Source: a virus
Direction: 5' to 3' (one strand)
Length of the DNA: 35,388 nucleotides
Virus record (IMG/VR): IMGVR_UViG_3300042430_000221
Coordinates: 1-35,388 of that record
A model generated the notes under the pieces. That model was not told where the DNA came from, did no database searches, and saw only the letters and a program-made list of their open reading frames with translations. Below are positions 11,588 to 15,206 of the stretch, piece by piece. The position numbers were made by a program, and so were the translations under genes. Within the stretch, counting starts at the first letter, position 1, and each line of letters opens with the position of its first letter.

Positions 11588-11638
11588 ATGTTGTGTAATA
11601 CACGCCACAGAACCATCACGCAAGACTTTGCGTCATGA
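11588..11638 (+). CDS. 16-aa leader peptide coupled to the replication initiator
   Basis: ATG 11588 follows a strong AGGAAGG at good spacing and encodes MLCNTRHRTITQDFAS. Its TGA overlaps the ATG of the initiator gene (ATGA). The initiator ATG has no Shine-Dalgarno of its own, so it appears to depend on translation of this short ORF. The ORF also contains an 11-bp palindrome, GTGTAATACAC (11593-11603). Leader ORFs of this kind control plasmid replication proteins. Confidence 0.55.
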   Translation: MLCNTRHRTITQDFAS

Positions 11639-12333
11639 GTATCAAATTAATGACAGCAGTATGGGATAGGGAAGACCTATCATCTACGCAAAAGCTTGTC
11701 CTTCTGTCTTTGGCAGATTGGGCAAACGATGAAGGTTTGTGCTGGCCTTCAATTGAGCGAGTAGCTAAAAAATCATCATTAAAAAAACGGGCTGTTCAAC
11801 TGGCAATTAGATCGCTGGAAGAAATGCAGTTTATTCGCCGTGAAGAAGTGATCGGCAAGGGCAATAGGTATTGGATTCAGATACCCATGCAGCAAATGCA
11901 CCCGTGCACTAAAGACATACCACCCGTGCACCAGATGCATGAGACCCCTGCACCAGATGCACCCAATACATTAAAGATACATCAATTAACCACCAAGTAT
12001 ATAATAGAGGGGTATCCAGTTTGGTTGCCGATTGATTCTTGGAAGGGTTGGGTGGAGATGCGAAAGCAACGCAAGCGCCCATTAACCGATAGAGCAAAAG
12101 CACGGGCGTTCACCAAGCTGGAAGCCCTGCACTTGGCAGGACACGACATAAACGAATTGCTAGATCGTTCGACAATCAACGGCTGGCTGGATATATACGA
12201 ACCGAAAGGCGCGACCAATGCAGGAAATAGCAAACACGCAGCAGAGCCAACCAACCCAATGGTCAGAGCAGTCATTGCCAGCCAAGCTAGACGAGCTGCT
12301 GATGGGGAGCGACCTACCGACGATTGGGCCTAA
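11635..12333 (+). CDS. Replication initiator, lambda-O-like (HTH_36 type)
   Basis: 232 aa. Residues 1-82 (MTAVWDREDLSSTQKLVLLS; NDEGLCWPSIERVAKKSSLK; KRAVQLAIRSLEEMQFIRRE) are a helix-turn-helix/winged domain as in phage O-type initiators. Residues ~84-128 are a His/Pro/Met-rich linker whose DNA carries iterons (see 11888). Residues ~129-185 (LPIDSWKGWVEMRKQRKRPL; AKARAFTKLEALHLAGHDIN; STINGWLDIYEP) are a C-terminal domain that in O-like proteins contacts the helicase loader. Expected to bind the internal iterons and start replication. Overlaps gene 12218 by 116 bases. Confidence 0.82.
   Translation: MSIKLMTAVWDREDLSSTQKLVLLSLADWANDEGLCWPSIERVAKKSSLKKRAVQLAIRSLEEMQFIRREEVIGKGNRYWIQIPMQQMHPCTKDIPPVHQMHETPAPDAPNTLKIHQLTTKYIIEGYPVWLPIDSWKGWVEMRKQRKRPLTDRAKARAFTKLEALHLAGHDINELLDRSTINGWLDIYEPKGATNAGNSKHAAEPTNPMVRAVIASQARRAADGERPTDDWA
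11888..12010. other. Candidate replication origin: four iterons plus AT-rich flank inside the initiator gene
   Basis: Imperfect direct repeats start at 11888, 11905, 11927 and 11949, each beginning TGCA. The first unit is 17 bp, the next two 22 bp. TGCACCAGATGCA is identical at 11927 and 11949; TGCAGCAAATGCA is at 11888; CACCCGTGCAC is identical at 11899 and 11921, again 22 bp apart. An AT-rich stretch follows (11964-12010, including ATACATTAAAGATACATC and TATATAATAG). This is the lambda ori design: iterons and a melting region within gene O. Confidence 0.62.
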
Positions 12334-12748
12334 GTCGGCTGAGACCCTTCAACAGTTTGTTGATGCCGCTAGACCACCAATGCCCGAGCGCGAACAGGTG
12401 GAGGTCATGATCGCCAAGCTATCATTAGCCACTGCCAGCCAGAAGCGCAGTCAGGAAGAAGAAGCAGAGCGCCTGGAGCTATATTGGCTGACGTTGCGAA
12501 TTTATCCCTTGGTCGATCTTCGAAGTGCGTTTCTAAAGCTACTGCGAACGTGCAAGTTTATGCCAACACCAGCGGAGATAGATTCGGTTGTTCAGAATGA
12601 AGGCTATGATCGCAGACGCAAGATCAATCGCGCCAAGCATCTCTTGATGATCCACTATCGTGATTATGAGCCGCCCCAAGAATATGTCACAGCCCTAGAG
12701 CTTGAAGATTTAAGAAGGAATCTGGAAATTGGCACAGCCCACAAATAG
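12218..12748 (+). CDS. Possible helicase loader / replication protein P-like
   Basis: 176 aa, overlapping the initiator gene by 116 bases in another frame; AAAGG lies before ATG 12218. Later starts at 12302 or 12377 are possible but have no better site. Conserved-looking part: ELYWLTLRIYPLVDLRSAFL, KLLRTCKFMPTPAEIDSVV, a pattern found in proteins following O-like initiators. The N-terminal 50 residues are low-complexity and the C-terminus is a basic helix (GYDRRRKINRAKHLL). No ATPase motif. The loader role is from position; sequence alone does not prove it. Confidence 0.6.
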   Translation: MQEIANTQQSQPTQWSEQSLPAKLDELLMGSDLPTIGPKSAETLQQFVDAARPPMPEREQVEVMIAKLSLATASQKRSQEEEAERLELYWLTLRIYPLVDLRSAFLKLLRTCKFMPTPAEIDSVVQNEGYDRRRKINRAKHLLMIHYRDYEPPQEYVTALELEDLRRNLEIGTAHK

Positions 12749-12948: not shown

Positions 12949-12995
12949 GAAAATACATCAGCTAGGGGATGCTTCCCGCCAACATGGAGACTGAA

Positions 12996-13241
12996 ATGAC
13001 ACCTAGAGGCCGTAACTTTGCAGAGATAGATGCTATTGCAGAGATGTATGATTACACTCTTGCTGATATTTTAGGCAAACAAAAAAATAGGACATTGGTT
13101 AAGGTAAGGCGCAAGTGCGTGGTTATGCTGCGAGACAAAGGCTATTCTACCACAGAGATTGGCCGCATCATGCAGCGCGACCACAGCACCATATGCCATG
13201 CGTTAAATATGTATGTAGTGAAAGGCGAGGGCGATGACTGA
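12996..13241 (+). CDS. Stand-alone DnaA domain-IV-like DNA-binding protein
   Basis: 81 aa from ATG 12996, which has GGAG 6 bases upstream; the frame extends to 12969 without a usable site. After an N-terminal helix, residues 24-70 match the C-terminal domain of DnaA: DILGKQKNRTLVKVRRKCVV, MLRDKGYSTTEIGRIMQ, RDHSTICHAL. The DHST motif (62-65) is what DnaA uses to read DnaA boxes. The AAA+ ATPase is absent, so it may mark or block DnaA boxes, or act as a regulator. Lies just after the O/P-type genes. Confidence 0.82.
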   Translation: MTPRGRNFAEIDAIAEMYDYTLADILGKQKNRTLVKVRRKCVVMLRDKGYSTTEIGRIMQRDHSTICHALNMYVVKGEGDD

Positions 13242-13983
13242 GCAATCTAATCCATATTTCATTGCTGGCCCCGCACTTATATCGTTCAGCGGCGGCAGAA
13301 CGTCTGGCTATATGCTGAAACAAATAATTGATGCACACGGCGGAATATTGCCTAATGACGTTTATGTTGTTTTTGCAAACACGGGAAAGGAGCGGGAAGA
13401 AACGCTTCGTTTTGTTCATGAGTGTGGAACTCGTTGGGGCATATATATTCATTGGGTAGAGTGGGCGGAATCTCCTAAAAGACGGAAAGCTGGCGAGCTA
13501 AAGCTTGACCCAATATCTGACGCACAACGCCGCTTCAGTTTTGTAGGATATAACAGCGCCAGCCGTAATGGGGAGCCGTTTGCAAAACTAATAGAGCGAA
13601 AGCGTTTCCTGCCAACAACCACAATGCGATATTGCACTTCAACCCTTAAAGTTGAAACACTAAAGTGGTTTATGATTGCCCAAGGTCATGAAACTTGGTT
13701 AAATGTTATTGGCCTTCGTGGTGATGAAATGCACCGCGTTTTCAAACAAATTGAGCGCAATGAACAGGCAAAGGAACGTTGGCAATCTGTAATGCCAATG
13801 GCAAAAAATGGCTCTGGAGCAAATGGCAGAATGGTAAGGGAGCAGGATGTTTTAGATTTTTGGAAGCAACAGCCTTTTGATTTGGGTTTAAAAAGCTATG
13901 AAGGTAATTGCGACCTATGCTTTCTAAAAAGCAGAGGCAAACTGTTGAAATTAATTAGAGACAATCCAACCAGTGCAGAGTAG
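13234..13983 (+). CDS. PAPS-reductase-like (PP-loop) protein, interrupted by amber codon
   Basis: 249 aa before an in-frame TAG. PP-loop SFSGGRTSGYM (17-27), NTGKEREETLRFV, TMRYCTSTLKVETLKWF and IGLRGDE are the adenylyl-binding core of phage phosphoadenosine-phosphosulfate-reductase-like proteins; CDLCFLKS follows. The downstream frame continues as coding sequence to 14175, so the TAG looks like a mutation (probably TGG to TAG). In phages these proteins are seldom true PAPS reductases; they may serve DNA or nucleotide modification. The start overlaps the DnaA-like gene by 8 bases. Confidence 0.8.
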   Translation: MTEQSNPYFIAGPALISFSGGRTSGYMLKQIIDAHGGILPNDVYVVFANTGKEREETLRFVHECGTRWGIYIHWVEWAESPKRRKAGELKLDPISDAQRRFSFVGYNSASRNGEPFAKLIERKRFLPTTTMRYCTSTLKVETLKWFMIAQGHETWLNVIGLRGDEMHRVFKQIERNEQAKERWQSVMPMAKNGSGANGRMVREQDVLDFWKQQPFDLGLKSYEGNCDLCFLKSRGKLLKLIRDNPTSAE

Positions 13984-15006: not shown

Positions 15007-15206
15007 TTGATACTGGTGAGGGCTCTAACTGGAAGTCTGCACTTGAGCCAGACAATCGCAGTTTGAAATTTTACACAACAGAAGAACTTAACGCTCCGTT
15101 TGTGTTGGAAGCAATTCAACGCTGGCACGGATGCACAATAGGTGAGGCAGTCATTAAGCGCGATGAAGAATTAGCTTGTCGCACAGAGGTGGATGAACAT
15201 GGATAA
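15003..15206 (+). CDS. 67-aa hypothetical protein
   Basis: Starts MIDTGEGSNWKSALEPDNRS by ATGA overlap with the methyltransferase stop and ends in an acidic HGCTIGEAVIKRDEELACRT segment. Overlaps the DUF3310 gene by 8 bases. No family recognised; position suggests an early accessory protein. Confidence 0.6.
   Translation: MIDTGEGSNWKSALEPDNRSLKFYTTEELNAPFVLEAIQRWHGCTIGEAVIKRDEELACRTEVDEHG

Follow-up and report, generated by a model that had tools for sequence, protein, structure and literature searches.

The window analysed here is the whole 35,388-bp IMG/VR record IMGVR_UViG_3300042430_000221, which carries a P22-type portal gene (P22_portal, E=2.7e-156), a terminase gene, and SSB, ERF and YqaJ recombination genes. 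A GapR gene had been noted in the initial annotation, and this is present on the minus strand as a match to PF10073, where it adjoins SSB and NinB in a leftward recombination module. On the plus strand lies a gene for an O-like replication initiator, in which four short inverted repeats are followed by an AT-rich stretch, and the coordinates of these features are collected in Table 1. The gene that overlaps the end of the initiator gene has no Pfam match and its model is of low confidence (pLDDT 66.9), and its designation as a helicase loader is therefore a guess from position; 38 distinct relatives of this gene were found in loci L003-L245. Shortly after the initiator gene there is a gene for a 90-aa protein with DnaA domain IV (12969-13241, plus strand; Bac_DnaA_C, E=1.7e-12), and a PAPS-reductase-like gene (13234-13983, plus strand; PF01507, E=2.7e-5) is located beside the replication genes.

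Table 1. Features of the initiator locus and of the GapR gene (positions are those of the window).
Feature	Position	Strand	Basis
O-like replication initiator gene, 232 aa, holding the presumed origin	11635..12333	+	HTH_36 and PHROG 678 matches
Winged-helix DNA-binding domain, residues 1-84	11635..11886	+	AlphaFold model: helices 17-29, 40-47 and 51-63, wing 67-81
Block differing in relative L013, codons 40-112 (helix 2, recognition helix, wing, dyads)	11752..11970	+	DNA identity
Recognition helix, residues 51-63	11785..11823	+	AlphaFold model; covariation with half-site bases
Iteron dyad 1, TGCAGCAAATGCA	11888..11900	no strand	Sequence and comparison of relatives' linkers
Iteron dyad 2, single good arm	11905..11917	no strand	Class A mean 2.07 mismatches of 10
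Iteron dyad 3, TGCACCAGATGCA, translated VHQMH	11927..11939	no strand	Exact 13-mer copy
Iteron dyad 4, same 13-mer as dyad 3, translated PAPDA	11949..11961	no strand	Class A mean 0.00 mismatches of 10
AT-rich stretch, presumed unwinding element	11964..12008	no strand	75.6% A+T
Helical C-terminal domain, residues 133-182	12031..12180	+	Model helices 133-145, 152-167 and 172-182
Next gene, 176 aa, overlapping the end of the O-like gene; candidate helicase loader	12218..12748	+	Position only
GapR family protein, PF10073	8179-8421	-	E=9e-31

Using Pfam we detected an HTH_36 domain (PF13730) in the window initiator with E=3.6e-14 and 52.7 bits, against a curated cut-off of 25, and the top PHROG was 678, 'replication initiation O-like' (E=6.3e-29). 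The protein had been described beforehand as O-like with an HTH domain and both parts of this description hold, but its DNA-binding domain belongs to HTH_36 and not to the family assigned to lambda O in Pfam, PF04492 (Phage_rep_O), for which there was no match up to E 0.01. There was also no match to Pfam RepA_N up to E 0.01. In the AlphaFold model, ten-residue blocks covering residues 1-80 and 131-190 have pLDDT values of 86-97 and 83-89, respectively, and the pTM of the whole protein is 0.39. Residues R52, Q55 and L56 are positioned close to the start of the recognition helix. A search of solved structures by sequence gave eight weak matches, mostly MarR-type regulators (best E 0.033). Matches to the fold included initiator entries 4pql (Z 8.8) and 4pt7 (Z 8.6), and also 5kbj, all of which we take to be RepA_N proteins (they are listed only as initiator, Rep and DNA-binding protein); unrelated winged helices match the fold as well as, or better than, these three entries.

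Examination of the linker between the two domains revealed TGCA words at 11888, 11897, 11905, 11927, 11936, 11949 and 11958. Four tandem units starting at the first, third, fourth and sixth of these had been proposed, and their starts and their 13- and 11-bp identities are correct, but the spacing is 17-22-22, the repeat unit is a 13-bp inverted repeat (dyad) of the form TGCAY-N3-RTGCA, and the second copy is one-armed. The 13-mer TGCACCAGATGCA has exactly two occurrences in the whole record, at 11927 and 11949 and so 22 bp apart, and the 11-mer CACCCGTGCAC is found at 11899 and 11921, likewise 22 bp apart. Dyad 4, which adjoins the AT-rich stretch, is the best conserved of the four. Placement of the repeats between the HTH and C-terminal domains agrees with the AlphaFold model, in which the blocks of residues 81-130 are poorly ordered with a mean pLDDT of 48-71. 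The AT-rich stretch that had been noted after the repeats was also found, with the 45 bp from 11964 being the most AT-rich there and only 0.25% of all 45-bp segments of the record reaching the same A+T content.

We compared the window with the best 80 of 90 IMG/VR relatives found in one scan (L003-L082). Among these the half-site differs with the recognition helix, and three classes could be distinguished: class A, to which the window belongs, with helix KKRAVQ and half-site TGCAY; class B, with helix RSVQR and half-site TGACA; and class C, with helix R[AG]VQK and half-site TGAAC. Absence of the repeats from relatives would speak against an origin; in the window and these best 80 of 90 relatives, four sites were found at the same offsets in all 29 distinct linkers (14 class A, 6 class B and 9 class C). 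None of the 29 linkers departs from the word of its own class at more than 5 of 40 positions, whereas the word of the best other class gives 7 or more mismatches (class means 10 to 17). Mean mismatches of 10 at site 4 are 0.00, 0.00 and 0.11 for classes A, B and C, respectively, and the poorest site is site 2 in classes A and B and site 3 in class C.

Several of these genes are mosaic. DNA identity between the window and L013 (class B) is 0.99 over codons 1-39, falls to 0.67 over codons 40-47 (helix 2), 0.40 over codons 48-63 (recognition helix), 0.71 over codons 64-84 (wing) and 0.56 over codons 85-112 (iterons), and then rises to 0.80 over codons 113-122 and 0.93 over codons 123-232 (C-terminal). 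Likewise, L011 (class A) and L033 (class B) have a common C-terminal stretch of 62 codons with 99% DNA identity. Altogether, six N-terminal classes are found on closely similar C-terminal parts (at least 90% over 62 residues), three of which are variants of one HTH_36 domain. In L048-L082 comparable C-terminal parts of the initiator follow N-terminal domains that belong to none of classes A-C, and the dyads of these further classes were read without a shuffle test. Class E has three TTGCC-N6-GGCAA sites, 22 bp apart and in the corresponding place, in seven of the nine genes shown, the exceptions being L059 with two sites and L051 with none among its two best words. Class G, which also belongs to HTH_36, has GGAAC-N1-GTTCC-type dyads in all three genes, and no clear dyads were seen in the three genes shown for class F (YYKFNIGDY N-terminus). 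One 68,853-bp record, IMGVR_UViG_3300042314_000177, contains two such initiator genes (L005 and L055) with N-terminal classes A and F, and is either derived from two phages or a single record carrying two replication genes.

The working set comprised 538 records (the window and L001-L537), many of which are overlapping stretches of the same contigs, and as five scans gave the best 80 each, close relatives are over-represented. At least 436 genes in this set carry an HTH_36 domain, and at least 245 are distinct over domain and linker. When spacers of 0-8 were scanned in 244 distinct genes, spacer 3 was best in 146, spacer 1 in 67 and spacer 5 in 63 (ties counted); spacers 1 and 5 share the axis of spacer 3, and even spacers were best in just 3 to 9 genes each. 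Strong dyad clusters were present in 62 of 100 linkers, compared with 1 of 191 other segments of the same genes. The same scan, applied to lambda as a positive control, recovered the four annotated iterons, at the wider spacers 7 and 9. A control with reversed linkers was dropped, as a reversed dyad remains a dyad. The three-site threshold was missed by 66 of the 244 genes, and half-sites were called in the other 178, which have at least three sites and a sufficient score.

These calls gave 75 distinct helix/half-site pairs, of which the 70 with R52 served as training pairs. Within these, R56 is accompanied by C at half-site position 4 in 14 of 15 cases, against 0 of 55 without R56; R55 by G at position 1 in 8 of 9, against 3 of 61 without R55; and K56 by C at position 5 in 9 of 9, against 11 of 61 otherwise. 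G at position 2 is present in 69 of the 70. The exceptions to these patterns in training are L288, which has R55 and T1, three genes with G1 and no R55, and L247 (SDRT), which has CGCAG and not CGAAG. Helices without R52 (e.g. GESTVRT, CSRSAVRA and GRTAVIEA) go with other words and were excluded from the code.

Held-out genes were obtained from 157 profile hits at 157 new loci, from which 69 that were at least 80% identical to training, 24 that were anchorless and 6 that were too short were dropped. The 58 left were deduplicated to 51, and removal of 22 with weak dyads, 10 without R52 and one truncated copy of a training gene gave a set of 18, with identity to training of at most 69%. R56 coincided with C4 in 5 of 5 of these, against 0 of 13 without it (P=1.2e-4), R55 with G1 in 4 of 4, against 0 of 14 (P=3.3e-4), and G2 was present in all 18. 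The R56 rule was fixed before the held-out set was collected, and the R55 rule was seen in training and written down after the held-out listing. Two held-out genes were exceptions in their words, namely L605 (RAVQK), with TGCAC instead of TGAAC, and L678 (RSVQR), with TGACT. Within the weak-dyad set, L679 (RSVQR) has only a weak ACCAC, contrary to the R56 rule, and L634 (RTVMR, GTCAC) fits this rule only after a one-base register shift. Eleven further named records included four with R52 that were new to training (L699, L700, L701 and L705), and all four fit the R56 rule, with only L701 above the score threshold. The other seven were left out, as L708 is 94% identical to training, L709 has a truncated frame, L702, L703 and L706 are without R52, L704 is misaligned and L707 is anchorless.

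Mutual information was calculated over 122 distinct domains, which are unevenly related and have an effective number of about 53. Residue 56 ranked first among the domain positions for base 4 (0.65; next 0.38) and base 5 (0.51; next 0.33), and for base 2 R52 had a narrow lead (0.63; next 0.56). Residue 62 (0.30) was above residue 55 (0.27) for base 1, and base 3 had no clear partner and no single-residue rule among the 122 domains. Domain and linker are adjacent and co-inherited, the training set is uneven and each scan gave its closest relatives first (the best 80), all of which would favour the view that the covariation reflects mere common descent of domain and linker and not contacts. We nevertheless consider this unlikely, given the margin by which residue 56 exceeds other positions for bases 4 and 5 and the persistence of the R55 and R56 rules in held-out genes so far from training. 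Furthermore, RSVQR is found with TGACA, as in class B, in L382-L384, the domains of which are just 48-51% identical to that of the window.

Judged from these alignments, it is somewhat probable that a simple code applies to HTH_36 initiators, both of phages and of phage-like plasmids. In this code R52 would specify G2, residue 55 would specify base 1 (R giving G) and residue 56 would specify bases 4 and 5 (R giving CA and K giving AC). Since the sites to be bound are part of the same gene, this gene could then by itself reveal replication specificity and incompatibility group for very many phages, and the ~220 bp spanning helix, wing and iterons may represent a mobile specificity cassette.

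Covariation and the mosaic relatives both indicate that the repeats match the specificity of the encoded protein. A lambda-style origin within the initiator gene had been proposed for this locus, and the in-gene dyads, the neighbouring AT-rich stretch, conservation in the family and covariation with the recognition helix all argue for it. We therefore think it very likely that the window contains a theta-type origin of this style inside its own initiator gene, with the four dyads as the presumed initiator sites. We infer that the winged-helix domain would bind as a dimer to each of the four 13-bp dyads, and that the start of recognition helix 3 would read the half-site, with R52 contacting G2, residue 55 contacting base 1 and residue 56 contacting bases 4 and 5. 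With the sites spaced 17-22-22 bp, the four bound dimers may then assemble into a nucleoprotein knot, by which the AT-rich stretch on the right would be opened. The C-terminal domain may recruit the replicative helicase, perhaps via the product of the next gene.

It is quite unlikely that the protein binds the dyads for control (repression, a transcription block, or titration/handcuffing) and that replication starts elsewhere. The sites are located about 250 bp within the gene and not at its start, the AT-rich stretch comes after them, and in lambda, P22 and pSK41 the equivalent location in the gene has been annotated or reported as an origin. While the covariation with the recognition helix points to specific matching and not to an origin, and the small protein with DnaA domain IV could serve another origin, the record holds merely two degenerate DnaA-box-like words, at 15069 and 27701. 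Perfect DnaA boxes (TTATCCACA or TTATACACA) are absent from the record, and a DnaA-type origin is therefore not supported here. GC skew had been suggested as a further check around 11.9 kb, and a cumulative minimum does lie near 9-12 kb, but this coincides with a change in gene direction and is therefore not counted as evidence for the in-gene origin.

The dyads were also assessed against the coding constraint of the linker. When the protein was kept fixed and codons were redrawn from 11 genes of the record (20,000 draws), seven TGCA words in the 84-nt linker had P = 0.0018, and three TGCA-N5-TGCA dyads had P = 0.0023. In a blunter scan for the best dyad of any word, 6 of 60 synonymous shuffles were as good as the window linker, which is not significant (the figure was taken from L011, whose linker is the same as that of the window), a weakness explained by the residue pairs MH and MQ, which dictate three of the seven TGCA words. 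Of 102 distinct recognition segments, 62 scored above every one of their 60 synonymous shuffles and 71 scored above 57 or more (approximately the 5% level), while 31 did not reach this level, and the family evidence for the dyads outweighs that of the window linker alone. Thus, for all that the forced words and the blunt scan of the window might lend it, the view that a repeated or low-complexity peptide gave rise to the repeats, which the initial annotation had named as grounds for abandoning its reading, is highly improbable and already contradicted by the redrawn codons, by those 62 segments, by the use of one 13-mer in two frames (VHQMH at 11927 and PAPDA at 11949), and by class B and C relatives, in which the layout persists although both word and peptide differ.

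In this family, a DNA-binding domain and the sites presumed to belong to it occur within a single gene in some 245 distinct natural combinations, and rules of initiator recognition can therefore be read from sequence and tested with natural variants. Furthermore, as recognition helix, wing and sites all lie within about 220 bp of one gene, a single recombination event could swap protein specificity and origin together. That protein and site travel together is a possible reason for the location of origins inside initiator genes, since a phage could in this way switch its replication specificity in one recombination step.

An initiator gene that contains its own origin is textbook knowledge for lambda, in which the helicase is loaded by O and P. 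Like the window, lambda has four repeated binding sites in the middle of gene O, with an annotated spacing of 20-24-23, and phi80 has sites in gene 15 that are annotated as gp15 binding; by our scan the repeats of both are also dyads. Lambda O matches phrog_678, the best PHROG of the window initiator, at 1.7e-35, which indicates a shared remote family, whereas lambda, P22 (gp18) and phi80 have an N-terminal PF04492 (Phage_rep_O) domain and the window initiator has HTH_36. The half-sites also differ, being TCCCT-N7-AGGGA in lambda and of the 5-N3-5 form in the window. Complexes of O with the iterons, and an AT-rich region beside these, are described for lambda in PMC7466680. P22 (gene 18) and Salmonella phage L are P22-type like the window, and a rep_origin is annotated inside the initiator gene in both. 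The earlier claim that no such origin had been described for a P22-type phage is thus incorrect, and PMC8022706 likewise states that lambda, P22 and L carry iterons within their initiator genes. The phage L initiator has no HTH_36 match, and unlike the window its repeats are 11 bp in length and gave no strong dyad in the spacer-3 scan (score 3; best 6 at spacer 0).

We found no description of the dyad layout or of a residue-to-base code for these initiators in the open-access literature, which is weak evidence of absence as subscription papers were mostly outside its scope. A further parallel is found in the staphylococcal plasmids pSK41 (RepA_N) and pPR9 (an HTH_36 chimera of it). PMC5703833 places the origin of pSK41 centrally in rep, where it encodes a linker, and reports that in pPR9 about 500 bp, comprising the N-terminal domain and the origin, are replaced relative to pSK41, with the new N-terminal domain being a putative HTH of pfam13730. 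According to the same paper, a pPR9 mini-replicon is functional and compatible with pSK41. As described there, pPR9 resembles the window in having an HTH_36 (pfam13730) N-terminal domain and an origin in rep, but pSK41 and pPR9 are Firmicute plasmids, with the C-terminal domain of pSK41 Rep. The in-gene origin is thus already known, including an HTH_36 case in pPR9, and what is new here is the member in the window, the breadth of the family and the apparent residue-to-base code.
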